A program made the position numbers and the translations under genes. A stretch of DNA of 61,341 bases from the NCBI GenBank assembly GCA_017451225.1, contig JAFSPZ010000056.1:1-61341 (forward strand). The letters run 5' to 3'. The notes under the pieces were generated by a model. That model searched no databases, was not told where the DNA came from, and was given only the letters and a program-made list of their open reading frames with translations. Shown here in pieces: positions 13,907-55,592 of this stretch (the first letter of the stretch is position 1; the number at the start of each line of letters is the position of its first letter). The DNA comes from Muribaculaceae bacterium (GTDB taxonomy: Bacteria; Bacteroidota; Bacteroidia; Bacteroidales; Muribaculaceae).

Positions 13907-16900
13907 ATGAAAATAAAAAGAATTTTTTACCTACTAGCACTGATAACAACGATGTTGTTGTCACCGCTGGCTGCGAGGGCCATTTCGGGCCACTATAGCG
14001 ACCCGGGTGGTGGCTCCTACTGGTGCAACATCTATGTGGCCGAAGTGAGTCACGGTAAGAGCTACAGCTGGTGCACCGGCATTGACGAAGACACGGGTAT
14101 GAATAATTTCCGTGGCTTTGAGACTGATAATGGAGGAGAGTTATCGACAGAGTTTCCCACCGTCTTGATCAAATACCGCTATCACTACTCACAGCCCAAA
14201 GGTTATGACAGAAATGGTTCTGATCAATCTTTCTATGTAATGACACGCTCAGGCGCGCTAAAAAAGATTGGTGAGTGGCCCAAAGGTGGCAATTTCACTC
14301 AGACCGATTACACTTATGGTGTGATAGGTGATGGCACGATGGATGGCACTTGGTTATCGTTCCGTTATGCTCCCAATCAGGCCGGTCTTGAGAACGTTGT
14401 TGCTATCCAGATAGAGAATGATACTTACTATAAACAAGATCATTTTTGGGCTTGGGAGACAGACTATAGTTTCACTATTCACATGCGTTACCTCAAGGGG
14501 CTCGAGATGGACTTTGAGAAATGCCGAGAAGCTAATGTCGCTTGGAACTCTCCTGGCAAGGTTACAGTGAGCGCCGACAATAGTTGGCTTCCCGAGGAGT
14601 ATGGCCTCCTTGTGTATAATTTCAATTATAAGAGCAATTACAATGTCAATATAATATCGGAAGGCAAGAGCTACAGCAGCCATGCATTTGATGTGCAAAA
14701 TCGTGGCAACAAATCGATTTCAATCGATGTGCCTGTTAATAAAGACTTCAATGTTGAAGTAGTTAGAAACACTATTATAAGCTACAGGTACAACGGTCGT
14801 GATGTGACGCTGAAACTTAACGAGAACGAGAAGACGGAACATTCTTTCCACAACACTCCTCCCGATGTGACGGCTTCGTTCAACCAGGTGACAGGCGAGA
14901 TGCGCCTGCAATGGGATGTTGATAACGATGTGGCTAAAGAAGGTGACTTCCAGATTTACCGCACTCTGATGAACGAATATGGCTCCTATACAGGCAATCG
15001 CGAGAAACTGACTTCCACATCTAATAATTATTTTACCGACATGGCTCAATATGGGCTGGACTACATGAAATATTACCGCTATGAGATCTTCCAGCTCAAG
15101 AATTCTTGGAACGAGGTGGAAATCCCGAGCGCTCCCCAGCCACTCACTATTGTCAACCCGTGTGTTGTCATGACCAACACCCTTCCGGTAATACCCTTGA
15201 ACTTGTCGCAAGATGCTAGCGCCACCGATAAGATTAAGCTTGACTGGACTTTCAGCAATGTGCCTCAGAGTGAGACAAATATCACTTTTTATGTTAACCG
15301 CATTGACCCCGATGGAACTATAAGGAACCATTACGGAGAAGTGACGGTGCCTCGTAGCGCTGGCCAAGCGTCGTTTGTCGATGACAAGCCCGAATCGAGC
15401 TGCGAGGTGTATAACTATTATGTGACAGCCGATATCCTCGACGGAAGGCAACACCTGTCGAGCGAAATGGTGCAGTCGAGCCTTCTCGACGGAAGCATCG
15501 TGACCAGTGTCACAATAAGCAAGGGCAACTACATGGGCAGCGTGCACATTAACTGGACAGCAAAGCAGGTGGGCACCAGTCCAACCTACTTTGAAGTTCA
15601 TAGACGATTCATCGGTGCCAGCGACTGGCTCACAATAGGCTCCACCTCAGGAACAACAACTAATTACACATTTGTTGACCAGACCGCCGAGCCTGGAAGA
15701 TTCTACGAATATCGAGTGGCTGCCTATTCTCCCGACTGCGACGGCACAGGCCGAGTAATCAGCAATGCTATGATCGAGAGCGGCTTCAGCCAAGCTTCGG
15801 GTGTTATTGCCGGGCGCGTGCAATTTGATACAGGCACTGCTGTTGAAGATGTGAGACTGAACCTGCTGCGCAGTGGCGACGAGACATCACGCCCGCAGTT
15901 CTACAGCCGCCATGTGCTTGAGAGCGGAGGCGGCATGGAGTGGCATACCGATCCCGCTACTGCCAACAGCATGCTTCGTCTTGACCGTCCCTTTACTTTG
16001 CAGATGTGGGTCAATCCCGAAGTGGACCAGCAATGGGTAGGACTCTTTAGAATAGAAAATTATGACGGCAATTCTCATGATGCCGAAGGCCATGCCACAG
16101 GATATAGTTTCGGACTATTCAATTATAACCACAACAGCTATGGAGGCGACCACGACGGATTTGCCCTGATGTTAAAATTCGGCGGCACCGAAAAGTGGTT
16201 CCAAAATCCTGTCACCAAAGCTTATGGAGTAATTGAATACAACAAATATAGTCACATCACCATCCGCAACAATGCCGACGGTACTATAAGCTTCATCATC
16301 AATGGAGATGTTGAGAATCCTTATATTTTAGACGTCAATCAATATACTACTCTACATTTCGACACCAGCGAAATTCCTGCCGATGAGAACGGCGTGGTTA
16401 AAGTGAAAATCTGCTCCACCTATGGAAGTGGTCACAATAACACCCTCAGGGGCAACATCGATGAGGTGAGAATATGGAATCGCGCCCTTCCCAACAAGGA
16501 AATCGTTACCACTTATGACCGCTTGTTGAGTGGTCGCGAAAGTGGTCTTAAGGTGTATTGGCCTTTCGACGAAGGTCTAGAGGAATATGCATTTGACTAT
16601 TCCTACACCGATGGCGTGCCCAACGGCAACCATCCCATCTTGGGCCGCAACAACCGCCCGAGCGAGGTGGTGCCCAGCGAAGACAAACTCTCGCTCTATG
16701 GAATGACCAACACCAATGGCGAGTACATCATTCGTGGCATTCCTTTCACTGGCAGTGGCACTGGCTACACCGTGGCTCCCACCAAGGGGGTTCACTCATT
16801 CAATCCCACTAGCCGCACGGGCTTCATTAGTGCCAACTCGCTGTCGCTCAATGGCTATGACTTTACCGATGTGTCGTCGTTCAACGTGAGTGGCACAATT

Positions 16901-19900
16901 CGCTATTCAGGAACCGATGTCCCTGTCGATAGTGTAACGTTATATGTTGACGGCACTCCATGCAGCAAGAACGGCGAGCTCATCATGAGCGATGCCAATG
17001 GCGAGTATCTCATTTCAGTGCCTATTGGAGAACATTATATCGAGGCTCGCCGCAATGGTCACACCTTTGAACTCGGAGGTCGTTATCCTGCGATAGAAGG
17101 AGAGACTTTCAACTTTGTTGAACCCGCTCACCTTGATTTCTTCGACAACACGCTGGTAAACTTCAGCGGTCGCATCACTGGAGGCCAGGCCGAAGGCGAG
17201 AAGCCGCTCGGCTATGGCGTGAGTCGCAACACCGTAGGTCAGGCAATCATTACATTGGGAATGCTTGACCACCCACAGCGGCGCATAAATGTGATAAGAC
17301 AAGAAAACGGTACCACCGTGTCGTGGGAAGACAACCCCAACAAGGTTGACGTTGAGTCGGGAGGTGAATTCATTCATAGCAAATCTTGGCGAGGATATGG
17401 CGATGCCGATGAAGTGAAGAACATCTATATCGTCACCGACAGCATCACTGGCGAGTTCAGTGCACTGCTGCCACCATTGAGATATAACGTGAAGAATGTG
17501 TCTTTCAAGACCAATACTCCACTAAATGAGAGTCAGCCTTTTGCCTCAATTCCTGCAATAAATCTTAGTAATCCTCTCGACAGTGTTCGTCCCGACACAT
17601 TGTGGAATGACGACCACAACGCCTATGCAACTCTCTACCGTCCCAACAAGACATTGCGTCTCACCTATCGCAGCAACCCTGTGTTTGACGTGAAGCAAGT
17701 TGGTGCTTCAGCAGGAGCCTTTGGCTCTGATGTGGTGATGCTGGGCGATGACGAAGACATTGAGGTGCCACTCTACACGGTGAACGAGAGCACCGGAAAT
17801 GTAAATTACAACTACAACTATCCCGTGTTCCTTCAAGGTAGGGAATACAACTTCAAGATAAAGGTTTATGAACCTTACACCAACTACGACACAGGCCCGT
17901 CGGGAGTGCTTTACAAAGCGGCTCTCAGCGACAGCATCATCAGCATCAACAACGAGCTGAGCGGTGATGCAGCGGTTGTGATTGAAGATGTGCAGAACGA
18001 CTCAATCAATGCCAGCCGCGGTGATATTGTTAACCTGGAGCCAAACCAGATGCTTCTCGACAGCATTGGAGAAGCAACCTACAAGTGGAAGGTGGGCTAC
18101 CCCAACCTTTATAGCCCTCACACGCGTTCGATGAATATGAACACCGTTGTCAACGGGCGCTCCTATAACTGGCGGACCAACAGCTTCGAGGGCATAATAC
18201 TTGGAGTTATCCCAACGGGCAACAATTTCATCACAGCCGGTCCCGATAAGGTCGAGATGGTGCTGCGCGACCCGCCAGGCAGTCAGTCAACACTCACGTG
18301 GGGCGTTGACACCATAAAAACCAAATATCACTACAAGGTTGATGGAACGCATAATGCCGACAAGCTTAATGTCACATATATGGGAGGCTGCAAAATCACT
18401 ACAATCCTGGGCATGCTTCCAGTAGCTGCCGAGAACGATCTGGAGTTTATCAACGAACAAACCGGTTCGTTCCAGTATGAGCTCAAGCGCGATTGGGACA
18501 ACACCTCCTACGCGACCTACATTAACTCACATCAAGTGAGCACCTCCAGCCGCGACAAGTTTGTGGGACGCGACGGAGATGTGTTTATAGGATATTCAAC
18601 AAACTATATAATAGGTGCGGCCGATCAAGTGGGCCTCTTCAAGCAGGATGACGGTTCATGGAAATTGGGTACAGACCAGTGCGTGACTGTGGGCGAAAGT
18701 TTCGGTACACATTTTGAATACCCGCAGCGGTATATAGAGAATACCCTTATCCCCAACATCAAAAAGGCTCGCAACAGTTGCTTGACTCACATCTCGAGCT
18801 TGAGCGAAATGGAAGATAATCCTGACGTTCCCACTTATTACACTCTGCTCGATGAAAGCGACGAGCGATACGGCTCATCCAACGATGATCAATCAATATG
18901 GGGTGCTGAAGCCAAAGAAGGCTATGACGGCCCCAGCTACTGGTTCCGCTATCCCGATGATTATAAGGGTTGCGACAGTATTAAGTGGCAGAACGAGAAC
19001 ATACGTTTGTGGCGTGATCGCATGGCCGACAATGAGGAGGACAAGATTAAAGCCTTCAACGATCCTAAATACAGTAAGGGCAATGAGTCGTTTGCTTACG
19101 GAACTTCGGTCACTAATACCATAGCAACCAATAAGATAGTAAAAGACAACTATGCCTTCTCATTTAGCTTCAACCTTGCATGGGGAGCAAAGGTGGGAAT
19201 AACCAACAACGGCCATGGTGTTGTGGTTAAAAACGACCTCTCGGCAGGATATCACTACACCGAGGGCGATGTTGATGAGAGCCAATACAAGAACAGTTTC
19301 TCTTACTCCTTTGTAGATGCCGCACGAGGGACGGCACACACGGTCGATATTTTTGACTCGCCACGTGGATGGAGCCCTATTTTCCGCACTCGTGCCGGTC
19401 AAACTCGCTGCCCCTATGAGCCTGAGACCTACACCAAGTACTATAATCCAGGTACTCTGCTCAACTACTCGACAATGAAGCTCGACAATCCCAAGATTGT
19501 CATTCCCGAGAAAAACATTGTTGACGTGCCTGCAGGGCAGACAGCCCAACTGAAGATTCATCTCACCAACGAGAGTGAGACTCATGATGCCTACAATGTG
19601 GTGTGGCTCACTCTTGACCCATCGACTAACCCCGACGGTCTCCAGGTGCTGCTCGACGGATATCCTCTAGCAACAACCAATGAGATATGGATTCCTTACG
19701 GTCAAACCATGGAACGAACCTTGACCTTGAAGCAGAGCAACCCTGCCGTTCTCCACTATAACGATGTGAAGCTCGACCTGCTCAGCACTTGCCAGGATGA
19801 GATAGTATTTGACTCCGACATGTTTTCGGTACACTTTGTTGCCGCCGCTCCCGATGTGACCCTCTTGCTCGACAAGCACATCGTCAACAAGAAGGACCAT

Positions 19901-22900
19901 GACCAGGGCGATGAGCTCCATGTCACCATTAAAGACGTGAACCGTCAGTTCACGGGTCTTAAGGGTGTAAGGCTCAAATACCGCTTCGCAGGCGACAATC
20001 AATGGGTTACTGCTCACGAGTGGATGATGAGTAGCGATTATCTCACCGATGGCGAGAATGAGCTGCAGTCGATGATGCCTGCCGAGGGCAGCATCTATTA
20101 CACACTGGTGCTTCCCGACATTGACGGCAATTATGTTGTGGCTGCCGAGTCGATGGCGATGTTTGGCAACGATGAGGTAGTGAGCACAACTCCCGAAGAG
20201 AATGTGATTCGTGACACGCGTGGACCTAAGTTGCTGGGACAAGCCTATCCTAACACCGGCATCCTCACGCCCACCGATGATATACGCATCAAGTTCAACG
20301 AGGACATCCGTGAGAGCTATCTCACCAAGGACCAGAACTTCTTCATCACTGGTTCGCTCAACGACTCACAGGTTTCGCACGATGTGTCGCTACAGTTCAA
20401 CGGCACTCCAGTCGAGACCGATGCCTACCTGCCCATCGCCAACACTAGCTTCGCTTCATCATTGTGGCTCAAGCGCAAGGGCAGCGGCACCATCATCGAG
20501 CACGGTACCGAGGGCAACATGCTCAAGGTCGCCATCAACGAGAACGGGCAAGTCGATGCCACTATCAACGAAATCACAATCACGTCGATGGAGACAGTGC
20601 CAATGGACAAGTGGGTGTTCCTCGCTCTTAACTATGTGAAAGGCATGGCGGGGCAAAACACTCTCACCATGCTCATGGCCGAAGATGGCAACGAGACCAT
20701 GCTCTTCGACGAAGCAATTGTGTCCGACTACAATAGCAACGGCCGCCTCATTCTGGGACGCGATTTCACTGGCATGATGCACGAGCTTGTGCTCTGGAAC
20801 AAGAACTGCCCAGTGCGCACCTTGCTCGCACAAAAAGATGAGGTCGTAGCACCTTATCTGCCAGGACTCGTGGGCTACTGGAAGATGAACGAGGGTCACG
20901 GCACCACCGTTACCGACTATGCCCGTGGACGCAACATGCATCTCACCGCCGAGTCGTGGAACGTGGAGAACACCAACCTTGCCGCTCACCTCGATGGCGA
21001 GCACATCATCAAGGTGCCTATTGGTGGTGTGTCGCCACGCTCAACCGACAGCTATGTTGTCGAGACCTGGTTCCGTGGCGAGAAAGACAAGAATGCACGA
21101 GCCACGCTGCTCTCGGTTACCGACCGCGTTTCGATAGGCTTCGACTACGACAACTCGATGATTCTGCACCTCTACAACGATAGCCTGTCGTCGCTCGACA
21201 GCAATGGCCTACCAATCGTGCTCACCAACACCGACTACAACGACGGCAACTGGCATCACATCGCCCTCAATGTGCATCGAGGAGTGAGTGCCGTGGTTTA
21301 TCTCGACGGTAAGCCGGTCAAGACTCTTGCCGAGCAGCAATTGCAAGCTGCAGCAGGCGACTACCTCTATGTGGGTGGTATCCTCAAGTTTGACCCGCAG
21401 TCAAGCATGATTCAGGAGAGCTACAAGTTCACTGGCGACATCGACGAGCTGCGTGTGTGGAACGTGGCGTGCGATGGCACCTCGGTTATTGCCAACCGCT
21501 ACAATCAGGTCGATACCGCACAGGTTACTGGGCTCATAGCCTACTACCCAATGGAGCACAGCCTGCTTGATGCCAACGGCAACATCATCACCGAGTTCAG
21601 CCTCATCAACAATGCTCCTGGCATGGAGCAGCTGGGCATGGGCGAGGCCATTGGCCCTGGAGTGGTGCAATCGTCCACTGCTCCAGCTCTGCGCAAGTCG
21701 CCGCTCAAGCAAAACCTTGACTTCGACTTCACGGCTTCGTCCAACGAAATCTACATCAACCTCAACACCTTGCCGGCACGCATGCAGGGCAACCTGCTCA
21801 CGTTCATCGTCAAGAATGTGCGCGACATGCAGGACAACCTCTCCGAGGCAATCACTTGGAGTGCGGTGGTCGACTACAGCACTCTCGAGTGGGATCAAGA
21901 GGCGCTAATGGTTGAGAAGGACCGATTGAGCGAGACGCCTTTGTTCGCTGCCTTGCACAACAAGGGCAGTGAGAGCGGACGATTCGACATTTCGGGGCTG
22001 CCCACTTGGATCACGCCGTCGGTGACCTCTGGCGTGCTTAGCACGGGCGAGTGGGCGTCTATTGAGTTCATTGTGGGAGCCGACGCGCCTGTTGGTACTC
22101 ACATGGTCTATGCCTACGCCACCAACGACGACGGCATCTGCGCACCGCTCCTCTTTAATGTCACTGTCACAGGAAACGAGCCCAACTGGACTTTCGACCC
22201 CTATGGAGCCGAGAGTTCGATGAACATGATAGGTCAAATCTATCTCGACGACAAGATTTGCACCAACACTAACACCAAGATAGCAGCCTTTGTCGATAAC
22301 ACTTGCTGCGGTGTGGCATCGCCCAAGCTCGTCACTAGCCGTGATGCTTACTTCGTGAGCATGACCATCTATGGTCTTGAGGATATCACTGCTACCAAGC
22401 CCATCACCTTCCGCATCTATGATGCCGAGAAGGGCGTGGTGCTCGGCAATGTGAAGACCAAGCTCAATGGCGAGACGCTGAGTCCCACCTACCTGCCCAA
22501 TGGCTTGGTTGGTGACTACGACAATCCTGTCGTTTGGCAGCCTAGCGACATCGTTGAGCAGCAGTGCAACCTCTTCAACGGCTGGAACTGGATTTCGCTC
22601 TATGTGCAGCCCGAGCCTGGCAAGGCCGACCTGGAGAGCCTCTTCGGTCACTCTAAGACGTTCAACACTATCAAGGGTAAGGAAGGATTTGCCATGAATA
22701 GCGGCACTAAGTGGACCTCTACCGGTCTCGACACACTCGCCATTGGCAACCTCTACAAACTCAAGGTCAAGAACGATATCAACCACAGCATCAGTGGCAC
22801 GATGATTGACACTCGCACAACCACCCAGACCATCTACCCAGGATGGAACTGGATTGGCCCGTTGTCAATCTACAACTTGAGCCTTGGTGAGGCATTTGCC

Positions 22901-23692
22901 GACTTGATGCCCACTCGTGGCGACATTGTCAAGAGCAAGACTCAAGTGGCGTTCTACGATGGCTACAAGTGGGAGGGCGACCTCACAGCCATTATTCCTG
23001 GCATGGGCTATTATTACAAGTCCAACAACAGCGAACCTGTGACATTCCGCTATCCCACCATCGATGCCACTACCTATCAGGCGCCAGCCATGATGATGAA
23101 TGCACCACGCAACCTGCCATTCACACCTGTTGACCACTACCAGTTTAGCGACAACATGAACATTGTGGCCCGTGTGATGAAGGATGGCGTTGAAATCAAC
23201 GACCTGTGTATTGCAGCATTTGTCGACGGTGAGTGCCGTGGCGTGACAACAGCTACCGAAGATGGCTACTACCTGCTCACTGTGGCAGGCAACGCCGACG
23301 AGGCTGGCAAGATTGTGCGCTTCGCCACTATCTACAATGGCGAGGAGCGATGGTTCAGCGAAGAGCTGCAATGGCTCAGCGACTGGATCTATGGCGACCT
23401 TGACGAGCCTCAGATACTTGACCTGAACAGCACCTCTGCAATCGAGAATGTCATAGTGCCATCGGGCATCACCATCACGCCTGCTGTGGTGACCGACGTT
23501 ATTAACGTGCGCGCTGGCGACATCCTCAAGGAAGTGAATGTTTACTCGGTAAATGGCAAACTCATTGACCGCTTCACTCCCGACAATAATGAGGCTTCGT
23601 TGAACTTGGGTCACTTAATTGATGGCGTCTACTTCGTTGAAGCTCGCACCCACAGCGGTGCACGCGCCGTCAAGCAGATTGTCAAGAAATGA
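13907..23692 (+). CDS. giant secreted multidomain LamG protein with T9SS C-terminal domain
   Basis: A 3261-aa exported protein of unknown function. Signal peptide: residues 1-25 (ends AARA). Approximate order seen: unclassified N-terminal region (26-410); two fibronectin-III-like regions (about 412-520 and 540-612); LamG/concanavalin-like domain (about 675-875, ending in the typical NIDEVRIWNRAL); carboxypeptidase-regulatory-like domain (about 990-1060); a long unassigned middle; Big_5-like Ig domain (about 2104-2155, IRIKFNEDI); two further LamG domains (about 2163-2308 and 2325-2530, ending HELVLWN and DELRVWN); two repeated modules with FNGWNWISLY and YPGWNWIGPL; and a type A T9SS sorting domain at the end (about 3190-3261, VNVYSVNGKLIDRF ... 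VKQIVKK). It is probably attached to the cell surface and binds glycans or host polymers, by inference from LamG. Its stop overlaps the next start. Confidence 0.88.
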   Translation: MKIKRIFYLLALITTMLLSPLAARAISGHYSDPGGGSYWCNIYVAEVSHGKSYSWCTGIDEDTGMNNFRGFETDNGGELSTEFPTVLIKYRYHYSQPKGYDRNGSDQSFYVMTRSGALKKIGEWPKGGNFTQTDYTYGVIGDGTMDGTWLSFRYAPNQAGLENVVAIQIENDTYYKQDHFWAWETDYSFTIHMRYLKGLEMDFEKCREANVAWNSPGKVTVSADNSWLPEEYGLLVYNFNYKSNYNVNIISEGKSYSSHAFDVQNRGNKSISIDVPVNKDFNVEVVRNTIISYRYNGRDVTLKLNENEKTEHSFHNTPPDVTASFNQVTGEMRLQWDVDNDVAKEGDFQIYRTLMNEYGSYTGNREKLTSTSNNYFTDMAQYGLDYMKYYRYEIFQLKNSWNEVEIPSAPQPLTIVNPCVVMTNTLPVIPLNLSQDASATDKIKLDWTFSNVPQSETNITFYVNRIDPDGTIRNHYGEVTVPRSAGQASFVDDKPESSCEVYNYYVTADILDGRQHLSSEMVQSSLLDGSIVTSVTISKGNYMGSVHINWTAKQVGTSPTYFEVHRRFIGASDWLTIGSTSGTTTNYTFVDQTAEPGRFYEYRVAAYSPDCDGTGRVISNAMIESGFSQASGVIAGRVQFDTGTAVEDVRLNLLRSGDETSRPQFYSRHVLESGGGMEWHTDPATANSMLRLDRPFTLQMWVNPEVDQQWVGLFRIENYDGNSHDAEGHATGYSFGLFNYNHNSYGGDHDGFALMLKFGGTEKWFQNPVTKAYGVIEYNKYSHITIRNNADGTISFIINGDVENPYILDVNQYTTLHFDTSEIPADENGVVKVKICSTYGSGHNNTLRGNIDEVRIWNRALPNKEIVTTYDRLLSGRESGLKVYWPFDEGLEEYAFDYSYTDGVPNGNHPILGRNNRPSEVVPSEDKLSLYGMTNTNGEYIIRGIPFTGSGTGYTVAPTKGVHSFNPTSRTGFISANSLSLNGYDFTDVSSFNVSGTIRYSGTDVPVDSVTLYVDGTPCSKNGELIMSDANGEYLISVPIGEHYIEARRNGHTFELGGRYPAIEGETFNFVEPAHLDFFDNTLVNFSGRITGGQAEGEKPLGYGVSRNTVGQAIITLGMLDHPQRRINVIRQENGTTVSWEDNPNKVDVESGGEFIHSKSWRGYGDADEVKNIYIVTDSITGEFSALLPPLRYNVKNVSFKTNTPLNESQPFASIPAINLSNPLDSVRPDTLWNDDHNAYATLYRPNKTLRLTYRSNPVFDVKQVGASAGAFGSDVVMLGDDEDIEVPLYTVNESTGNVNYNYNYPVFLQGREYNFKIKVYEPYTNYDTGPSGVLYKAALSDSIISINNELSGDAAVVIEDVQNDSINASRGDIVNLEPNQMLLDSIGEATYKWKVGYPNLYSPHTRSMNMNTVVNGRSYNWRTNSFEGIILGVIPTGNNFITAGPDKVEMVLRDPPGSQSTLTWGVDTIKTKYHYKVDGTHNADKLNVTYMGGCKITTILGMLPVAAENDLEFINEQTGSFQYELKRDWDNTSYATYINSHQVSTSSRDKFVGRDGDVFIGYSTNYIIGAADQVGLFKQDDGSWKLGTDQCVTVGESFGTHFEYPQRYIENTLIPNIKKARNSCLTHISSLSEMEDNPDVPTYYTLLDESDERYGSSNDDQSIWGAEAKEGYDGPSYWFRYPDDYKGCDSIKWQNENIRLWRDRMADNEEDKIKAFNDPKYSKGNESFAYGTSVTNTIATNKIVKDNYAFSFSFNLAWGAKVGITNNGHGVVVKNDLSAGYHYTEGDVDESQYKNSFSYSFVDAARGTAHTVDIFDSPRGWSPIFRTRAGQTRCPYEPETYTKYYNPGTLLNYSTMKLDNPKIVIPEKNIVDVPAGQTAQLKIHLTNESETHDAYNVVWLTLDPSTNPDGLQVLLDGYPLATTNEIWIPYGQTMERTLTLKQSNPAVLHYNDVKLDLLSTCQDEIVFDSDMFSVHFVAAAPDVTLLLDKHIVNKKDHDQGDELHVTIKDVNRQFTGLKGVRLKYRFAGDNQWVTAHEWMMSSDYLTDGENELQSMMPAEGSIYYTLVLPDIDGNYVVAAESMAMFGNDEVVSTTPEENVIRDTRGPKLLGQAYPNTGILTPTDDIRIKFNEDIRESYLTKDQNFFITGSLNDSQVSHDVSLQFNGTPVETDAYLPIANTSFASSLWLKRKGSGTIIEHGTEGNMLKVAINENGQVDATINEITITSMETVPMDKWVFLALNYVKGMAGQNTLTMLMAEDGNETMLFDEAIVSDYNSNGRLILGRDFTGMMHELVLWNKNCPVRTLLAQKDEVVAPYLPGLVGYWKMNEGHGTTVTDYARGRNMHLTAESWNVENTNLAAHLDGEHIIKVPIGGVSPRSTDSYVVETWFRGEKDKNARATLLSVTDRVSIGFDYDNSMILHLYNDSLSSLDSNGLPIVLTNTDYNDGNWHHIALNVHRGVSAVVYLDGKPVKTLAEQQLQAAAGDYLYVGGILKFDPQSSMIQESYKFTGDIDELRVWNVACDGTSVIANRYNQVDTAQVTGLIAYYPMEHSLLDANGNIITEFSLINNAPGMEQLGMGEAIGPGVVQSSTAPALRKSPLKQNLDFDFTASSNEIYINLNTLPARMQGNLLTFIVKNVRDMQDNLSEAITWSAVVDYSTLEWDQEALMVEKDRLSETPLFAALHNKGSESGRFDISGLPTWITPSVTSGVLSTGEWASIEFIVGADAPVGTHMVYAYATNDDGICAPLLFNVTVTGNEPNWTFDPYGAESSMNMIGQIYLDDKICTNTNTKIAAFVDNTCCGVASPKLVTSRDAYFVSMTIYGLEDITATKPITFRIYDAEKGVVLGNVKTKLNGETLSPTYLPNGLVGDYDNPVVWQPSDIVEQQCNLFNGWNWISLYVQPEPGKADLESLFGHSKTFNTIKGKEGFAMNSGTKWTSTGLDTLAIGNLYKLKVKNDINHSISGTMIDTRTTTQTIYPGWNWIGPLSIYNLSLGEAFADLMPTRGDIVKSKTQVAFYDGYKWEGDLTAIIPGMGYYYKSNNSEPVTFRYPTIDATTYQAPAMMMNAPRNLPFTPVDHYQFSDNMNIVARVMKDGVEINDLCIAAFVDGECRGVTTATEDGYYLLTVAGNADEAGKIVRFATIYNGEERWFSEELQWLSDWIYGDLDEPQILDLNSTSAIENVIVPSGITITPAVVTDVINVRAGDILKEVNVYSVNGKLIDRFTPDNNEASLNLGHLIDGVYFVEARTHSGARAVKQIVKK

Positions 23693-42660: not shown

Positions 42661-43668
42661 TTAGTGGTGATGATGATGGTGATGATGGTGGCGGTCTTTT
42701 TCGTCCTTTTTATCTTTTTCCTTCTTATCATCTTTGCCGTTTTCCTTCTTCATGGCCTTTACTTGGGCGCTGAGTTTCATTGCCTCGTCCATAGCAGTGC
42801 GAAGACTTTGCTTACTGTCACTGTTGATACCGTATTTCTCGGCGGGTGGAATCACGAGCGAAGCCCCAATGGGAATCTTGTGGTAATCAGGATGCTGTTT
42901 TTGATTCTCTATAGCGATATAAACCCAGAATGCTTTGTCACCATAGTGGCGCTTGGCCATGTCAAATAGCAGATTGTCAACTCGTAGCGTATCGGTGACC
43001 ATTGGCGCTGGCTTTGCAGCGACAATAGAATCATTCTTGGCAATGTTAGTGTTAGTTGCGTTTGGTTTGCTCATGTAGTGCGAAGTGATCCCGGCAACTA
43101 TGGCTATCGCAGCGATGGCAGCGGCAATAGCCAGCCATTTCTTCTTGCTGGAGGGCTTTGGTACCTCAATGGCTTCTTGTTGTGGCTGCTGTGGTTCTTC
43201 TCGAGCAGGTTGTGGTTCCACTTGTTTTTCTTCTTGCTGAGGCTCTACTACAGCTTCAACTCTCTTTTCAAGTGTAGTCTCTGTCGTCTGTTCATGGGCA
43301 GGCTCAATAGCCTGTGATGGTTCAATAATGGCGGGGGCAACTGGCTCAGGTTCCATGCTGGCATCAATCTCGTCGAGTTGCTCTTGAGTTACCTCGTCAC
43401 AAAGCTCGACAGGCTTGAACTGCTCAAATGGGGCATTGACAGCCTGGGCAAGGTCTTTGTCGGGGGTGAAGACCACCGTTTTCTCGTCGTTGTCTTTGCC
43501 AGGCTTGAAAGAACCCAGTCCTTTGATTGTCACGCTTTGACCCTTGTCAAGAACCTGTGTTACAGTGGCGAAGAGTTCTTGTAGGAACAGTTCGCTCATG
43601 CGGGTGGTCGTGCTTGCTTTCTCGGCCACGAGCTCCACCAGTTGCGGAAATGCTATCTTTTCTTTCAT
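42661..43668 (-). CDS. HU-like domain - TM - LysM-like protein with a nine-His C-terminus
   Basis: A 335-aa fusion of three parts that normally lie in different compartments. Residues 1-88 are an HU/IHF-like DNA-binding fold (VTIKGLGSFKPGK, the HU turn). Residues 95-175 are a Glu/Pro/Gln-rich linker. A single hydrophobic helix (about 178-195, KKKWLAIAAAIAAIAIVAG) follows a Lys cluster, predicting the N-terminus inside. Residues about 226-275 look like a LysM domain (LLFDMAKRHYGDKAFWVYIA, IPIGASLVIPP). A Lys/Asp-rich tail ends in HHHHHHHHH. The start overlaps the upstream HU gene by 4 bp. A protein that could hold DNA on one side and peptidoglycan on the other is inferred; neither binding is shown. 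Confidence 0.85.
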   Translation of the reverse strand: MKEKIAFPQLVELVAEKASTTTRMSELFLQELFATVTQVLDKGQSVTIKGLGSFKPGKDNDEKTVVFTPDKDLAQAVNAPFEQFKPVELCDEVTQEQLDEIDASMEPEPVAPAIIEPSQAIEPAHEQTTETTLEKRVEAVVEPQQEEKQVEPQPAREEPQQPQQEAIEVPKPSSKKKWLAIAAAIAAIAIVAGITSHYMSKPNATNTNIAKNDSIVAAKPAPMVTDTLRVDNLLFDMAKRHYGDKAFWVYIAIENQKQHPDYHKIPIGASLVIPPAEKYGINSDSKQSLRTAMDEAMKLSAQVKAMKKENGKDDKKEKDKKDEKDRHHHHHHHHH

Positions 43669-46563: not shown

Positions 46564-47763
46564 TCATTTTCCGGCAAGCAGAATTTCATAAACGAATGTC
46601 ACATCGTGAGTGGTAATCGCGCCGTCACCGTCTTGGTCACCGTTAACGATGTCGGTCATGTCACCACTAAGAATGTAGTTGTAGAGCAAAGTAATGTCAA
46701 ATGAAGTAACCTCGCCATCACCGTTCACGTCACCAGAAACGCCTGTGTTATCTGGGATAACAGTAAGAGTCATGTCGTTGACATTAAGGCGGAAAGTGAA
46801 CTTGCCACCATTCTCCATGCGGAAGTTAGAACCGTCAACCAACTGCAGAGGAGTATTGAGCAGGCCATTGTTGATCAAGAAGTAGCCACCGCCATACTCA
46901 TCAATTCCACCAAGCCAAATCCAGTCATTACCTTCGCCATTGGGAGTGATAACCTTGAATTCAGCACCAGCCTCAAGTGTGCCTTCAGTCTCATAAACGC
47001 CATCTTCTTCGGTGCCTGCAAATACCAAACGGCCGCCATCCTCGTTAGTGTTCCAACTGTTGAATGAACCCACCATGTAGAACTCCTCATAGGCTGGAAG
47101 AGTGCCAGGAGTGTAGGTGAAAGTGGTCCAAGGGATAAAGTCGCACTGCTGCTTATAGTAATATGTGTCGGTCAATTGGCATCCTGCAAGGCCTGCATGC
47201 CACATCACGTTCTGTCCACGGAATTTGAATTGCTTCCAGCCTTCGGCGGTGGTGTTTTCAAAGCCAATGAGCAGGTTGCCGCCACGATACTTGTAGGGTG
47301 TAGAGAATGTGATGGTCATTTCACCCCACTCTTGATTGGTTGGCCCCACTCTCTCAACGGTAATCTTGCCTTGATAGATGACTGTGCAATTAGCTTTGGG
47401 CTCAAAGTCGAAATGACCTTCGCTGGCATCAAATGTGGTGTAGCCCACCTCACCCACATAGGCATCGGCAGTAGAAGCCGAGGTGTAGGGGGTGCTGTAA
47501 CTGGTTGAGTAGAACTTCACCGAAGTAATGTCACCGCCTTTCATTTGGGTCAAAAATTGGGCTGGAATAATGAATTGGCTTTTGGTGCCTGCCTTGTTCC
47601 AGTAACGAGTGTATACAGGAAGATAGTCGTTGGTTTTTATTTCTATCGACGTTTCTGTCCCTTCGGTAGTTCCGTCAAACACGGTCAAAGTCTCGGTTTC
47701 TTGGGCAAAGGCTGGCATGCACATTACCCACATCAATAAACAGAGTAATAATTTTTTGTTCAT
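46564..47763 (-). CDS. secreted protein with SusE/F-like domain and dockerin-like tail
   Basis: A 399-aa exported protein (signal peptide MNKKLLLCLLMWVMCMPAFA). Residues about 30-215 are a beta-rich region without a clear name. Residues about 228-338 resemble the SusE/SusF starch-binding type of Ig domain (FYMVGSFNSWNTNEDG, EFKVI, DWIWLGG, GKFTFRLNVNDMTLTVIPD). Residues 343-399 are a dockerin-like pair of Ca-binding loops (DVNGDGEVTSFDITLLYNYI and DQDGDGAITTHDVTFVYEIL). No T9SS domain follows. It diverges from the M6 protease gene, which has almost the same tail. A carbohydrate-binding role is inferred. Confidence 0.82.
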   Translation of the reverse strand: MNKKLLLCLLMWVMCMPAFAQETETLTVFDGTTEGTETSIEIKTNDYLPVYTRYWNKAGTKSQFIIPAQFLTQMKGGDITSVKFYSTSYSTPYTSASTADAYVGEVGYTTFDASEGHFDFEPKANCTVIYQGKITVERVGPTNQEWGEMTITFSTPYKYRGGNLLIGFENTTAEGWKQFKFRGQNVMWHAGLAGCQLTDTYYYKQQCDFIPWTTFTYTPGTLPAYEEFYMVGSFNSWNTNEDGGRLVFAGTEEDGVYETEGTLEAGAEFKVITPNGEGNDWIWLGGIDEYGGGYFLINNGLLNTPLQLVDGSNFRMENGGKFTFRLNVNDMTLTVIPDNTGVSGDVNGDGEVTSFDITLLYNYILSGDMTDIVNGDQDGDGAITTHDVTFVYEILLAGK

Positions 47764-48140: not shown

Positions 48141-50375
48141 ATGAAAAAAATTTTCACTTTGATTGCCAGCGCGCTTGTGACGCTCGCTGCGCTCGCAGTG
48201 CCGGCAGTCCCCATCCCCATCCAGGTTACTCAGCCCGATGGTACACAGTTGACGATAAAAATCGTTGGCGACGAGTTCTTTAACTATCACACCACGGTCG
48301 ATGGATATACCATCGTCCGCAACGAGGCAGGTTATTTTGTATATGCCATGAGTAAGAACGACGACGTCGTGCCCAGTAAGGTTATAGCTCACGAGGTGAA
48401 TGATCGTTCGGCTAGCGAAGCACAGTTTGTAAGCACCTTGAAGAAAGGCATCATCAGCAAGGTTGACGCCCGTAACGGCAAGGCCCGTCGTGCTCCAATT
48501 GATGCCCAAACCAAGGCTGCAGGGGCGAAGGCAGCTCAGTATGATTACAACAATTTCCGCGGTATTATTATCCTTGTGGATTATAATGACTGCCAGTTCA
48601 CTCGCAGCGATGCGCATGATTTCTACGACCGCATGGCCAACGAGGTGGGATACACTGGTTACACCAACGAGGACGGCTCCTCCAACTATTATGGCGCTTG
48701 CACCGGTAGCGTGCGCGACTACTACACCGACAACAGCCAGGGTCGTTTCAGCCCCACTTTCGACGTGTATGGTCCAGTTCACTTGACTAACTATTCGGTT
48801 GATGACCACAATAAGTGGGAAAACACTGGCGAGATTTGGAAGGCCGCAATGCTACAAATTAACTCGCAAGTTGATTTCACCCAGTATGATGGTGACAACG
48901 ACGGCAATATCGACATGATTTACTTCATTGGTGCCGGTAGCGGTTCAAACAGCGACGGCTCAAGCACTCACCTGTGGCCTCACAAGAGCGACCTTTATTG
49001 GGAGGACATCGTTGTTGACGGCAAGCGCGCTCGCACCTATGCCTGCTCGACCGAGTATCTGTATAACTCATACTATGGCATTTTTGACGGCATTGGCACC
49101 ATTTGCCACGAGTTCAGCCATGTGCTTGGCCTGCCCGACCTCTATGACACTGACTATGAAGATGGCGGTGGCCAGAGCCAGATTCCTGGTGACTGGGAGG
49201 TGATGTCGGGAGGTAGCTACAACAATTACTCTCGCACCCCAGTGGCCTACAGCCTCTATGACCGCTACTCGATTGGCTTTGCCAATGCTCAGGTAATCAA
49301 TGCCAAGGGTGAGTATGCACTCAACCAGATAGGCTCTACTGGCGAGGGTTATATAATCAACAGCCCCGAAACACAGGTGAAGTTCTATCTTGAGAACCGC
49401 CAGAATACCAAGTGGGATGCCTATGCACCTGGTCATGGCATGCTCATATGCCGGGTTGACTCGACCAACACCTCGGTGTGGGACAGCAATGATGTGAACA
49501 GCAACCCAGCTCACAACTACTATGTGCTGTTGCGTGCTGGAAATGGCACTGGCAATGAACAAGCCGACGACACATTCCCAACCGGTGCCACTCTTATCAC
49601 CAACACCACAACCCCTAACCTAAGGACCTGGAGTGGACTCGCTTGTCAGTACAATATCACTAACATACGCGAGCAGAATGGCGTGATTTACTTCACCGTT
49701 GGCGACGATTCATCGCTGCACAGCGTGGTTGAGGACTTTGAGGAGATGCCTGTTGCAACCACTCCACCAAGTGATGATGTGCAGGGTGTTTACTCGAAGT
49801 GGAAATTCGTGAACTGCTATGTGAACAATCCAGCAAGCGACTACTGCAACGGTGAACACTCGGTAATCATGAAGAAGCCATCATCACTCACGATGACTCA
49901 GAATGTGCGCTATGTCAGCTACATGGTAAGCTTTGATGCCTACAACGCATCGACAACCGCAGCCAAGTACATCCTGTATTCTTCGACCGATAATGGAGAG
50001 ACTTGGAATACAGTGCCCAACAGTGACGGTGAGACAACCTCGACAGTTTCGGCCAACAGCAGTACCACATTGAAGTATACCTTCAACATGGACGTGCCAG
50101 CGCGTTACCGCATCAGCATGAGCGCAGGCGCCACATCCTATAAGGCCTATATTGACGACTTCACCATTTATTACACCGATGTTATTCCAGGTGGAGATCC
50201 AGTTGCTGGCGACGTGAATGGTGACGGTGAGGTTACCGCAGCCGACATTACCGCTCTCTATAGCTTCATTCTCAACAGCGACACCAGTTCAATTGTCAAT
50301 GGTGACCAGGACGGTGACGGCGCGATTACTTCAAGCGATGTGACTACCGTTTACACCATTCTGTTAGGAATCTAA
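48141..50375 (+). CDS. secreted M6-family metalloprotease with dockerin-like tail
   Basis: A 744-aa exported zinc protease. The signal peptide MKKIFTLIASALVTLAALA is followed by a propeptide (QPDGTQLTIKIVGDEFFNYHTTVDGY in parts) and an immune-inhibitor-A-like catalytic domain with HEFSH (His323, Glu324, His327) in ICHEFSHVLGLPDLYD, plus a downstream Met-turn-like EVMSGGSY. A jellyroll-like domain spans about 530-685, and a dockerin-like domain (about 690-744) has DVNGDGEVTAADITALYSFI and DQDGDGAITSSDVTTVYTIL. It should digest proteins outside the cell; tethering by the tail to a cohesin-like partner is conjecture, as none is in view. Confidence 0.88.
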   Translation: MKKIFTLIASALVTLAALAVPAVPIPIQVTQPDGTQLTIKIVGDEFFNYHTTVDGYTIVRNEAGYFVYAMSKNDDVVPSKVIAHEVNDRSASEAQFVSTLKKGIISKVDARNGKARRAPIDAQTKAAGAKAAQYDYNNFRGIIILVDYNDCQFTRSDAHDFYDRMANEVGYTGYTNEDGSSNYYGACTGSVRDYYTDNSQGRFSPTFDVYGPVHLTNYSVDDHNKWENTGEIWKAAMLQINSQVDFTQYDGDNDGNIDMIYFIGAGSGSNSDGSSTHLWPHKSDLYWEDIVVDGKRARTYACSTEYLYNSYYGIFDGIGTICHEFSHVLGLPDLYDTDYEDGGGQSQIPGDWEVMSGGSYNNYSRTPVAYSLYDRYSIGFANAQVINAKGEYALNQIGSTGEGYIINSPETQVKFYLENRQNTKWDAYAPGHGMLICRVDSTNTSVWDSNDVNSNPAHNYYVLLRAGNGTGNEQADDTFPTGATLITNTTTPNLRTWSGLACQYNITNIREQNGVIYFTVGDDSSLHSVVEDFEEMPVATTPPSDDVQGVYSKWKFVNCYVNNPASDYCNGEHSVIMKKPSSLTMTQNVRYVSYMVSFDAYNASTTAAKYILYSSTDNGETWNTVPNSDGETTSTVSANSSTTLKYTFNMDVPARYRISMSAGATSYKAYIDDFTIYYTDVIPGGDPVAGDVNGDGEVTAADITALYSFILNSDTSSIVNGDQDGDGAITSSDVTTVYTILLGI

Positions 50376-51316: not shown

Positions 51317-51341
51317 TTATAATTACAACGTGTCAAAAATA

Positions 51342-52430
51342 ATGGCAACACTTGACGACAGCATCATCGACGACTCGCAGTTAGAAATCCAGAGCGACTT
51401 CAGCGACCCCGATTTCACCGAGAACGGCCGTGACTACTGGGAGCACTATCACTATGTGGTGGAGCCTGGACATGTGTTGCTGCGCATAGACAAATATCTT
51501 GTGGAGCGCATTAAAGGCACGTCGCGCAACCGCATCCAGAACGCCGCCGAGGCTCAGTGCATCAGAGTGAATGGCCGTGCTGTAAAGAGCAACTACCGAG
51601 TGCATCCAGGCGACGAGATTTCGGTGGTGATGGACCGTCCGCGCTATGAGAACGAGATTATAGCTCAGGATATTCCACTGAATATCGTCTATGAAGACGA
51701 AGACTTGCTGGTTGTGAACAAACCTGCAGGAATGTGTGTTCATCCAGGTCATGGCAACTATGACGGCACTCTCGTGAATGCGCTAGCTTGGCATTTCAAG
51801 GATAACCCAAACTATGACGTAACCGACCCTCGCATGGGGCTCGTCCACCGCATTGACAAGGATACCAGTGGGCTGCTGGTAGTTGCCAAGACTCCCAACG
51901 CCAAGACATCGCTTGGACTACAGTTCTTCAACAAGACCACCAAGCGCCAGTACATTGCAGTGGTGTGGGGCGCTATGAAACAGCCTGATGGCACAATAGA
52001 GGGAAACATTGGACGCAGCTTGCGTGACCGTCTTCAGATGGCGGTGTTCCCCGATGGAGACCAGGGCAAGCATGCCGTGACTCACTACCACACGATAGAG
52101 AACCTTAATCATGTTGCAGTTGTTCAATGCCAGCTTGAAACGGGCCGCACGCACCAGATTCGCGTGCACATGCGCCACATTGGACATCCGCTATTCAATG
52201 ACGAGCGTTATGGCGGCGACAAGATACTGCGTGGCAATACCTCGTCGAGCTACGCACAATTTATTCACAATTGCTTTAAAATCTGTCCTCGGCAAGCACT
52301 TCACGCTAAGACGCTGGGATTTGTACATCCCACAACCGGCCAGCAGATGGACTTCGACAGCGAGCTGCCCGAGGATATGGCAGAACTTATCTCTCGATGG
52401 GAAAAATTCGTATTAAGTGTTAAGGGTTAA
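51342..52430 (+). CDS. rluD: RluA/RluD family 23S rRNA pseudouridine synthase
   Basis: A 362-aa enzyme that isomerises uridine to pseudouridine in large-subunit rRNA. An S4 RNA-binding domain (about 45-105, LRIDKYLVERI) is followed by the catalytic domain with VHRIDKDTSGLLV, whose Asp is the conserved nucleophile, then ETGRTHQIRVHM. A GTG at 51330 would add four residues; the ATG at 51342 is preferred. The last codons form half of a 12-bp terminator palindrome shared with the converging ugd-like gene. The assignment to RluD (helix 69) rather than RluB/C is by similarity. Confidence 0.9.
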   Translation: MATLDDSIIDDSQLEIQSDFSDPDFTENGRDYWEHYHYVVEPGHVLLRIDKYLVERIKGTSRNRIQNAAEAQCIRVNGRAVKSNYRVHPGDEISVVMDRPRYENEIIAQDIPLNIVYEDEDLLVVNKPAGMCVHPGHGNYDGTLVNALAWHFKDNPNYDVTDPRMGLVHRIDKDTSGLLVVAKTPNAKTSLGLQFFNKTTKRQYIAVVWGAMKQPDGTIEGNIGRSLRDRLQMAVFPDGDQGKHAVTHYHTIENLNHVAVVQCQLETGRTHQIRVHMRHIGHPLFNDERYGGDKILRGNTSSSYAQFIHNCFKICPRQALHAKTLGFVHPTTGQQMDFDSELPEDMAELISRWEKFVLSVKG

Positions 52431-52457: not shown

Positions 52458-53786
52458 TTAACCCTTGTCATTTGGTTCTTTACCTATGCAGAAGTAGGTA
52501 AATCCCATGTCTTCTAGTTCTTTGCCGTCGTAGATGTTACGGCCGTCGATGACGAGCGGAGTTTTCATAGCCTCCTTTACTTTCTCCCATGAGGGGACAC
52601 GGAACTGTCGCCACTCGGTCACGAGCATAACGGCATCGGCCTTGTTTACGGCATCGTAGATGTCGAGGGCACAATATATGTCGTTCCAACGGAACTTGAT
52701 GGCGTTCATAGCTACTGGATCGTAGACACGCACGTGGCATCCTGCTTGCAGCAGCAAGTCGATAGTTGTGATTGATGGTGACTCGCGAATGTCGTCGGTG
52801 TTGGGCTTGAACGATAATCCCCACAGGGCAACAGTCTTGCCCTTGATGTCACCGCCGTAATACTTGTTGAACTTCTCAAAGAGTCGTTGCTTCTGCTTAA
52901 CATTAACCTTGTCGACGGCTTTAAGAACCTCCATTGAGTAGCCGTTTTTCTCGGCAATGTTGATAAGGTCGTTGATATCTTTGGGAAAGAGTGTTCCACC
53001 ATAGCCACATCCAGGATAGATGTATTTGGGACCAATGCGGCTGTCGGTTCCCACACCATGCCGCACGGTGTTGATGTCGGCTCCCACGATTTCGCACAAG
53101 TTGGCAATCTCATTCATGAAGCTTACTCTTGTGGCAAGCATGGAGGTTGCGGCATACTTAATCATCTCGGCAGTGGTCGAGTCGGTATAAATCACGGGGA
53201 AATACTTGAACTTGAGAGGATGATAGAGAGTGTCCATTGCTTTGCGGGAGCGCTCGTTGTCAACACCAAGAATGATGCGGTCGGGGTTCATAAAGTTCTT
53301 GATGGCGTTACCCTCGGTAAGAAAGTCGGGGTTTGAAACAACGTCAAACTCAAAGTCAACGTTGCGCTTGTCAAGTATATCTTGAATGACTTCTTTTATT
53401 TTCTTGGAAGTTCCCAGTGGCACTGTCGACTTGATGATGAAGACAGCGTAGTTGTTGATGTTGTTGGCAAAACGGGTAGCTGTGTCAATCACTTGAGTGA
53501 GGTCGGTACTGCCGTCTTGAGCTGGAGGAGTGTCGACTGCGCAGAATACATAGTCGACATTGTCAAAGACGTTGGCAAAGTTGCTTGTAAAGTTAAGTCT
53601 TCGTGCTGCCACCGACCTTTTTACCATGGCTTCCAAGCCCTGTTCATAGATGGGCAGCCCTCCATAGAGCAACAAGTTGATTTTGCGTGCATCGGAGTCT
53701 ACACAAGTAACGTTAACTCCTAAGTCGGCAAAGCATGCGCCAGTTACCAGACCTGCATATCCTGTTCCAACGATAAGTATGTTCAT
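52458..53786 (-). CDS. UDP-glucose/GDP-mannose dehydrogenase homologue with altered active site
   Basis: A 442-aa member of the nucleotide-sugar dehydrogenase family with the full three-domain layout: Rossmann GTGYAGLVTG (7-16), central domain, and UDP-binding C-terminal domain (SFKPNTDDIRESPS). Aligned with the catalytic residues of the Streptococcus pyogenes enzyme as I know them, Thr121, Glu158, Lys210 and Asp270 are kept, but the nucleophilic Cys260 is Leu266 (GYGGTLFPKD instead of GYGGSCFPKD), Asn208 is Thr214 (KYAATSM) and Glu141 is Asp154 (NPDFLTEG). Loss of the Cys should block the aldehyde-to-acid step that makes UDP-glucuronate. It could be a one-step oxidase, a regulatory or sugar-binding protein, or an inactive paralogue. 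The gene is intact and isolated, without capsule genes nearby. Confidence 0.88.
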   Translation of the reverse strand: MNILIVGTGYAGLVTGACFADLGVNVTCVDSDARKINLLLYGGLPIYEQGLEAMVKRSVAARRLNFTSNFANVFDNVDYVFCAVDTPPAQDGSTDLTQVIDTATRFANNINNYAVFIIKSTVPLGTSKKIKEVIQDILDKRNVDFEFDVVSNPDFLTEGNAIKNFMNPDRIILGVDNERSRKAMDTLYHPLKFKYFPVIYTDSTTAEMIKYAATSMLATRVSFMNEIANLCEIVGADINTVRHGVGTDSRIGPKYIYPGCGYGGTLFPKDINDLINIAEKNGYSMEVLKAVDKVNVKQKQRLFEKFNKYYGGDIKGKTVALWGLSFKPNTDDIRESPSITTIDLLLQAGCHVRVYDPVAMNAIKFRWNDIYCALDIYDAVNKADAVMLVTEWRQFRVPSWEKVKEAMKTPLVIDGRNIYDGKELEDMGFTYFCIGKEPNDKG

Positions 53787-53919: not shown

Positions 53920-53927
53920 TATCTTTG
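53920..53927 (+). promoter_or_regulatory. -7 box TATCTTTG for glpAB
   Basis: Perfect TAnnTTTG; the transcript should begin near 53933, downstream of the in-frame GTG/ATG candidates around 53925, supporting the ATG at 53982 as the GlpA start. Confidence 0.7.
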
Positions 53928-53981
53928 TGGTTGGGTTTCTTAAAACTCGAAATTAACCTAGTCAAAACTCTCTCAAAAATA

Positions 53982-55592
53982 ATGTTGGAAATTAACAAAC
54001 CTTCAAGTCCAGAATATGACGTTATAATAATAGGAGGCGGCATCACTGGTGCCGGAATGGCTCGCGATTGCGCTTTGAGGGGACTCAAGGTGTTGCTAGT
54101 TGAGCGTTTCGACTTTACAAATGGCGCCACAGGTCGCAACCACGGTTTGATGCATAGTGGTGCCCGTTATGCTGTGACCGATCAGGAAAGTGCTGCTGAA
54201 TGCATAGCCGAGAACATGATTCTGCGCAGCATTGCCCGTCACTGTATTGAGGAAACCGATGGCCTTTTTGTAACACTTCCCGAAGATGACCTTGACTATC
54301 AGACAACCTTTGTAGACGCTTGTCTTAATGCCGGCATCAATGCCGAAATAATAGACCCCGCCTGGGCTAGAGTCCTAGAGCCTGTTGTTAACCCAACGCT
54401 CATTGGTGCAGTGCGTGTGCCCGATGCTTCGATTGACCCGTTTGCTCTCACTACCGCCAACCTGCTTGATGCTCGTCGTCATGGCGCTGTGGCTCTCACT
54501 TATCACGAGGTGACCGATATTATTGTGGAAAACGGCAGTGTAGTGGGTGTTAAACTGCACAATAATCTCACAGGTGAGGACAGTACAGCCTTTGCACCAG
54601 TGACTGTTAACGCTGCGGGCATTTGGGGCACTCTGATAGCCAAGAAGGCCGGAATTGTTATAAATATGTTTCCTGCCAAGGGGTCGTTGCTCATCTTCAG
54701 CCATAGAGTGAACAACATGGTGCTGAACCGTTGCCGTAAACCTGCCAATGGCGATATTCTCGTCCCTGATAAGATAGTGAGTATGCTCGGCACCACCAGC
54801 GACCGTGTTCCTATTACTGAAATTGACAATATGCGAGTGACGCAGGAAGAAGTGGAAATCTTGCTCAAGGAAGGCGTAAAACTTGTTCCATCGTTGGCAA
54901 AGACTCGCATTTTGAGAGCTTATGCTGGCGTGAGGCCATTGGTCGCAAGTGATGATGATCCCTCGGGACGCAGCATCAGCCGCGGCATTGTGTGCATGGA
55001 CCATAAAGAGCGTGACGGTCTGGATGGCTTTATCACCATTACAGGCGGCAAGTTGATGACCTACAGGTTGATGGCCGAAAGAGCTACCGACCTGGTGTGC
55101 AAGAAGATTGACAAAGTGGGCGCTTGTACTACAGCAATATTGCCATTGCCAGGCAGCGATGAGAAAGCTCCCAAGAAACGTGGCAACCAGCATGCTGTGA
55201 CGATGAAAGCCGCTCAGGAGCGTCATGGGTCATTGACAAAGGAAATCAAGGAGCACAGCACCGAAGATAAAGCAATGGTGTGTGAATGTGAGCACGCCAA
55301 CGTGAGCGAGATGAAATATGCCATAGAGAAACTTCATGTCAATAACTTGACAAACTTGCGCCGCCGCACTCGCATGGGCATGGGTTCTTGCCAGGGTAAG
55401 CTGTGTGCTTGCCGAGCAGCATTGCTACTGTGTAAGGCAGGTTGCGACGCCGAGGAGACCCTTGCCGACCTGGCCTCGTTCATGAACGAGCGCTGGAAAG
55501 GAATGCGCCCGATTGCATGGGGGTCAACCCTGAATGAAGCTCAATTGACGACTACAATTTATGAAGGCCTGTGCGGTCTTACAATGAAATAA
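53982..55592 (+). CDS. glpA: anaerobic glycerol-3-phosphate dehydrogenase subunit A
   Basis: A 536-aa FAD-dependent dehydrogenase that oxidises glycerol-3-phosphate to dihydroxyacetone phosphate. It has the FAD-binding motif IIIGGGITGAGMARDCALRG near residue 14, a DAO-type fold with GRNHGLMHSGARY, and a C-terminal BFD-like [2Fe-2S] domain with CxC (CECEH) and later CQGKLC (about residues 427-490). I chose the ATG at 53982 (MLEINKPS) because a longer start falls upstream of the predicted transcript. It is followed 24 bp later by glpB; the usual third gene glpC is missing here. Confidence 0.92.
   Translation: MLEINKPSSPEYDVIIIGGGITGAGMARDCALRGLKVLLVERFDFTNGATGRNHGLMHSGARYAVTDQESAAECIAENMILRSIARHCIEETDGLFVTLPEDDLDYQTTFVDACLNAGINAEIIDPAWARVLEPVVNPTLIGAVRVPDASIDPFALTTANLLDARRHGAVALTYHEVTDIIVENGSVVGVKLHNNLTGEDSTAFAPVTVNAAGIWGTLIAKKAGIVINMFPAKGSLLIFSHRVNNMVLNRCRKPANGDILVPDKIVSMLGTTSDRVPITEIDNMRVTQEEVEILLKEGVKLVPSLAKTRILRAYAGVRPLVASDDDPSGRSISRGIVCMDHKERDGLDGFITITGGKLMTYRLMAERATDLVCKKIDKVGACTTAILPLPGSDEKAPKKRGNQHAVTMKAAQERHGSLTKEIKEHSTEDKAMVCECEHANVSEMKYAIEKLHVNNLTNLRRRTRMGMGSCQGKLCACRAALLLCKAGCDAEETLADLASFMNERWKGMRPIAWGSTLNEAQLTTTIYEGLCGLTMK

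Follow-up and report, generated by a model that had tools for sequence, protein, structure and literature searches.

A UDP-glucose dehydrogenase homologue lacking the catalytic cysteine in one Bacteroidales genus, a candidate UDP-hexose-binding pseudo-dehydrogenase

The stretch of DNA analysed here (the window) comprises 61,341 nucleotides of a Muribaculaceae genome of 2.28 Mb in 70 contigs, estimated to be 85.5% complete. It carries a gene for a Cys-less homologue of UDP-glucose dehydrogenase (Ugd), which we name ugdL, between two genes of the opposite strand:
52458..53786, minus strand: ugdL (name coined here), Cys-less UDP-glucose dehydrogenase homologue, 442 aa
53325..53327, minus strand: codon of Asp154 (Glu141 of S. 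pyogenes Ugd), from PDB alignment
53145..53147, minus strand: codon of Thr214 (Asn208 of S. pyogenes Ugd), from PDB alignment
52989..52991, minus strand: codon CTC of Leu266 (catalytic Cys260 of S. pyogenes Ugd), from PDB alignment
53925..55592, plus strand: GlpA, anaerobic glycerol-3-phosphate dehydrogenase, divergent from ugdL; TIGR03377, 741.3 bits against a cut-off of 552.8 (scored on the gene as read from L289)
51330..52430, plus strand: RluD-like pseudouridine synthase, convergent with ugdL; named by eye, synteny only

Translation of the minus strand gave a single open frame of 442 aa, and the N-terminal, central and C-terminal Pfam UDPG_MGDP_dh domains all scored above their cut-offs (185, 117.6 and 115.2 bits), in agreement with the intact frame described in the initial annotation. 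UgdL scored 420.8 bits against the subfamily cut-off of 189.8 for NCBIfam TIGR03026 (NDP-sugar dehydrogenase superfamily), and 459.2 bits against the cut-off of 700 for the TuaD equivalog; the latter shortfall may be taxonomic, as the scoring included no canonical Ugd from Bacteroidales for comparison. Its best PDB match was 3gg2 (E 4e-155), and 1dli was also among the matches. Like Ugd (PDB 3gg2, 2y0c and 1dli; TIGR03026), UgdL is a full-length protein of three domains with a NAD Rossmann motif, the UDP-glucose pocket, Lys210 and Asp270, and the inter-subunit Arg250 (UgdL numbering), but Glu141, Asn208 and Cys260 of Ugd are replaced by Asp, Thr and Leu. A check for a second, canonical Ugd in the window's incomplete genome found none; the only other relative there is a UDP-ManNAc-dehydrogenase-type gene (L002). 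Its product belongs to the same superfamily and shares 29% identity with UgdL, but it keeps Glu/Asn/Cys and passes its own equivalog cut-off (512 vs 459 bits).

Residues were assigned from five PDB alignments (3gg2, 2y0e, 2y0c, 2y0d and 4a7p), which bore out the replacements first read from the sequence, Cys to Leu266, Asn to Thr214 and Glu to Asp154, together with the retention of Thr121, Glu158, Lys210 and Asp270. A survey of 229 family sequences reported 18 invariant residues, including Glu141, Asn208 and the nucleophilic Cys260 (PMC4794789). Among 266 homologues, only three combinations occurred at the corresponding positions, namely Glu/Asn/Cys in 186 canonical homologues, Asp/Thr/Leu in 78 (the Leu forms) and Asp/Thr/Cys in 2. 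Positions 154, 214 and 266 are thus Asp, Thr and Leu in 78/78 Leu forms and Glu, Asn and Cys in 186/186 canonical homologues. As aligned, three of the 18 family-invariant residues, all within the catalytic site or next to it, are replaced jointly. Among the other 15, 11 are unchanged wherever the letter is present in the 78 Leu forms, and variation is seen at the positions matching Gly12 (in 3 of the 78), Thr83 (in 10), Ser117 (in 9) and Thr118 (in 1). Further near-fixed switches in the Leu forms are Thr94, Thr205, Tyr255, Thr265, Ile271, Asp273 and Ile277. The possibility that Cys260 of UgdL itself is the true catalytic cysteine, raised in the initial annotation as an alternative placement, was rejected, since this column is Cys in only 125 of the 186 canonical homologues whereas column 266 is Cys in every one; the original alignment thus stands.

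Codon usage was examined in 93 rows, consisting of 86 genomes and 7 named loci, some of which share organisms. Leu266 is encoded by CTC in 22 rows, CTA in 13, CTT in 2, CTG in 41, TTG in 13 and TTA in 2, and position 214 uses each of the four Thr codons. Because all six Leu and four Thr codons are in use, the Leu and Thr residues themselves seem to be selected. The dN/dS of the window's gene against 11 close relatives was 0.021-0.057, a rough estimate given dS values of 0.7-1.9; set-wide medians (0.187 for Leu forms and 0.354 for canonical homologues) mix in saturated pairs and were set aside. One related copy (in G617) contains an in-frame stop, as a decaying pseudogene or assembly artefact might, but such an origin of ugdL is far-fetched in view of its occurrence in 86 genomes, the low dN/dS near the window and the exchange of synonymous codons at the replaced positions. 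Sequencing error, already judged unlikely from the codon, was discarded on the same grounds, the same triple recurring in 86 genomes of the genus with six Leu codons.

The search covered 101 genomes of the genus, many of which are incomplete metagenome-assembled genomes. Read by sequence, the Leu form is present in 86 of them (in G645 from a fragment), the Asp/Thr/Cys form in 2, and only a canonical copy in 6; among the other 7, G655 has a match within the score range of the Leu forms (by score only) and six have no high-scoring match. Full-length Leu forms scored 780-891 bits and the Cys-keeping forms 754-758 bits. By score, a canonical copy occurs in 46 of the 101 genomes, 17 of which were read by sequence; it accompanies ugdL in 38 of the 86 Leu-form genomes and was not found in the other 48, including the single-contig genome G173. 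The top match outside the genus, at 710 bits in G112, was read as canonical, and sets of 397 genomes of the family, 393 of the order and 395 of the phylum gave no higher-scoring one outside the genus, mainly by score; these sets include genus members, sample larger groups and were screened with a loose first look. The best 80 named loci listed include 7 Leu forms, one of which (L098) sits within the Asp/Thr clade of the tree, and 73 with Glu/Asn/Cys. Among the genomes searched, the Leu form is, as judged mainly by score, confined to one Bacteroidales genus.

Trees from which columns 154, 214, 265, 266 and 269 had been removed unite the Asp/Thr forms in one clade (SH-aLRT 100 in one tree, 100/100 in another), which bears on the clade check proposed initially for the Leu homologues. 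The neighbour of this clade is L173 (95/90), a canonical protein from a different family. The clade itself divides into the Cys-keeping pair, the window's Lys269 branch and a Gln269 branch at a poorly supported fork, in which 33 Leu rows group together at 44/17, and there may have been two Cys losses or a reversion. The Cys-keeping paralogues L230 (G617, the copy with the in-frame stop) and L231 (G647) both have Gly9 replaced by Ser in the Rossmann motif, and both genomes also bear a canonical copy (L265 and L264, respectively). On the simplest account the path was probably stepwise: Glu to Asp, Asn to Thr and Ser to Thr265 would have occurred while Cys was kept, followed by Cys to Leu and finally, within one branch, by Lys269 to Gln.

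The UDP-sugar side of UgdL is well kept. Lys210, Arg250, Lys327, Arg416, Leu217 and Phe267 are constant in all rows bearing the letter (92-93 of 93), Lys210 being kept in 93/93, and Asp270 is kept in 92/92 and Tyr10 in 92/93 Leu rows; Asp30 is present in 78/78. Seven positions are reported to mark UDP-glucose dehydrogenases among the family (PMC4794789). At five of them all 93 rows have the UDP-glucose-type residue, namely Leu217 (equivalent to the specificity residue Leu211 of the UDP-glucose type), Cys28, Lys119, Ala213 and Gly244, and the remaining two are Met and Thr, the same as in most canonical relatives here. A different nucleotide-sugar class, one of the options initially proposed for UgdL, is less likely because of these five residues.

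The NAD side has changed more in most relatives of the window's gene. In the Leu rows, Lys269 is replaced in 72/93, Arg334 in 63/92, Thr86 in 10/93 and Pro87 in 72/93, compared with 0 of 185-186 canonical relatives. The altered NAD contacts are the counterparts of Lys263 and Thr83 (10/93), which contact the nicotinamide ribose, and of Arg327, which contacts the pyrophosphate (PMC4794789), and Asp29 and most Rossmann glycines stay. Lys269 to Gln alone says little, since most UDP-ManNAc dehydrogenases carry Val at the Lys263 position (PMC4794789), and the Arg334 changes, present in both branches, may be drift. UgdL of the window itself retains all NAD contacts examined, and in its branch of 20 genomes Lys269 and Thr86 are kept in 20 and Arg334 in 17. 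Regional identity was compared between pairs with comparable identity overall (70-72%), which are not independent of one another. Leu forms were 62% identical in the NAD loop (78-126) and canonical pairs 77%; the corresponding values were 92-95% vs 87% for the catalytic loop and 69-72% vs 60% for the UDP domain; the first 35 residues, including the Rossmann motif, were not relaxed (77% and 84% vs 78%).

As the pocket and UDP domain are held and the NAD contacts drift, our preferred reading, which we rate at about even odds, is that ugdL is a neofunctionalised Ugd paralogue whose product would most likely act as a UDP-hexose-binding pseudo-dehydrogenase. With the UDP-glucose-type pocket and the inter-subunit arginine retained and the thiohemiacetal- and thioester-forming thiol lost, UgdL would not turn UDP-glucose into UDP-glucuronate by the normal route and could serve as a sensor or regulator under selection to bind its ligand. 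Without the thiol the standard route is closed, and judging by published Cys mutants UDP-glucuronate formation should be lost; human Ugd (hUGDH) C276A reportedly does not reach completion from UDP-glucose (PMC3184952), in line with the earlier expectation that thiohemiacetal chemistry would fail without Cys. Where that annotation had left open whether UgdL stops at the aldehyde or acts as a sensor, the NAD contacts eroded in most relatives point to binding rather than to an aldehyde-forming enzyme. Our confidence is modest because Asp270, Lys210 and Tyr10 are retained, the start of the Rossmann region is not relaxed and the window's protein has its NAD contacts intact; the kept Asp270, Lys210, Tyr10 and Asp30 seem to go beyond the needs of a pure binder.

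The main rival to the pseudo-dehydrogenase, unlikely though worth serious thought, is a two-electron UDP-hexose C6 oxidoreductase that would interconvert UDP-glucose and UDP-6-aldehydo-glucose by means of Lys210, Asp270 and NAD(H), carrying out only the initial, reversible oxidation or the corresponding reduction. The retained Thr121, Lys210, Asp270 and Rossmann motif and the NAD contacts kept in the window's branch are consistent with this activity, and the near-fixed changes at 205, 255, 265, 271 and 273 suggest a site that was rebuilt, not decayed. To our knowledge, UDP-dialdose has no consumer, which counts against such an enzyme, as do the NAD contacts eroded in most relatives. Reversibility has been described for the first oxidation (PMC3184952), but Asn208, described as helping it (PMC4794789), is Thr in UgdL.

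We consider it improbable that UgdL is instead a two-electron aldehyde (hydrate) dehydrogenase converting UDP-6-aldehydo-glucose from elsewhere into UDP-glucuronate without covalent catalysis. The C276A enzyme is reported to oxidise the aldehyde (PMC3184952), and Tyr10, the reported catalyst of the final hydrolysis, is among the kept residues, but the thiol of the acid-forming half is gone, a separate source of aldehyde would be needed, and the eroded NAD contacts again speak against it. Also in its favour, a UDP-glucuronate-4-epimerase-like gene was found in 9/28 ugdL genomes without canonical Ugd (in one of the nine, G017, as a match of 36% only) and in 3/20 with it, in a search that covered 28 of the 48 and 20 of the 38 such genomes, plus two others. 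A UDP-xylose-synthase-like query produced a single match (29%) at E<=1e-30 across 101 genomes. The two queries had been named by eye and neither passed any NCBIfam cut-off, so each is weak, and given its patchy occurrence as well the epimerase-like gene was rejected as a marker. Its presence, which speaks against the pseudo-dehydrogenase, means that some ugdL genomes may produce or use UDP-glucuronate.

That UgdL is a functional UDP-glucose 6-dehydrogenase, still yielding UDP-glucuronate through a rebuilt mechanism, is more doubtful again. Such an enzyme would fit the retained UDP-glucose-type pocket and the 48 genomes, single-contig G173 included, that have ugdL and by score no canonical Ugd, but the counterparts of positions 154, 214 and 266 are invariant in the 229 published sequences (PMC4794789), Cys mutants are reported to fail and Cys260 of UgdL is no substitute. 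Because ugdL is by score the only close Ugd homologue found in those 48 genomes, labelling it UDP-glucose 6-dehydrogenase would attribute UDP-glucuronate to these bacteria on slender evidence. The same count, by score and with many incomplete genomes, makes a hetero-oligomeric partnership with canonical Ugd unlikely as a general rule.

The human Ugd mutants C276A and C276S (PMC3184952) lack the nucleophile as UgdL does, but they are single engineered changes whereas UgdL combines three natural changes genus-wide. The trypanosome AdoMetDC prozyme is likewise a catalytically dead-looking paralogue maintained by selection, but it pairs with an active paralogue whereas ugdL often occurs where no canonical copy was found. 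In the literature searched (titles and abstract openings, with subscription journals mostly outside its scope), no natural Cys-less Ugd was found. We think it fairly probable that a four-electron dehydrogenase has here evolved naturally and genus-wide into a UDP-sugar receptor or half-reaction enzyme, a new function in the Ugd fold, with a Cys-keeping form surviving. The canonical, Asp/Thr/Cys and Asp/Thr/Leu forms within one genus offer a setting in which to ask how individual residues contribute to each half of the four-electron reaction.

The flanks of ugdL, mostly 1.5-3 kb, showed no sugar-nucleotide operon, and a Wzc-like gene (named by eye), which 12 of 14 inspected canonical copies of the genus directly follow on the same strand, is absent from the 60 largest neighbour clusters of ugdL. 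Neither an AqpZ-like gene nor glpA was found beside the 186 canonical loci (44 with <700 bases upstream) or the two Cys-keeping loci. In the Gln269 branch, an AqpZ-like channel gene lies near ugdL in 66/75 loci (for example L279:2141-2854, minus strand) and is divergent in 63/63 measured; its product passes the MIP cut-off and scores 211 bits against the aquaporin Z cut-off of 256. This adjacency may be plain synteny, and a link of ugdL to aquaporin was not adopted, the one MIP gene found in the window's genome lying on a different contig. The window's ugdL and glpA-glpB are transcribed divergently; in the Lys269 branch glpA adjoins ugdL in 15/23 loci, and 4 of the other 8 have <700 bases upstream. 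The RluD-like neighbour cluster is present in 13/95 loci. The RluD-like neighbour is taken as synteny only, and the position of glpA does not imply a common function with ugdL.

Elsewhere in the window, several proteins were described by eye. The products of 46564-47763 (minus strand) and 48141-50375 (plus strand) look secreted and have dockerin-like C-terminal repeats (GDVNGDGEVT...GDQDGDGAIT), and the latter has the look of a C10-type peptidase. A secreted-looking protein of 3261 aa with a C-terminal sorting-type tail is encoded at 13907-23692 (plus strand), and the product of 42661-43668 (minus strand) combines a HU-like DNA-binding domain, a long linker, a LysM-like end and a C-terminal His run.
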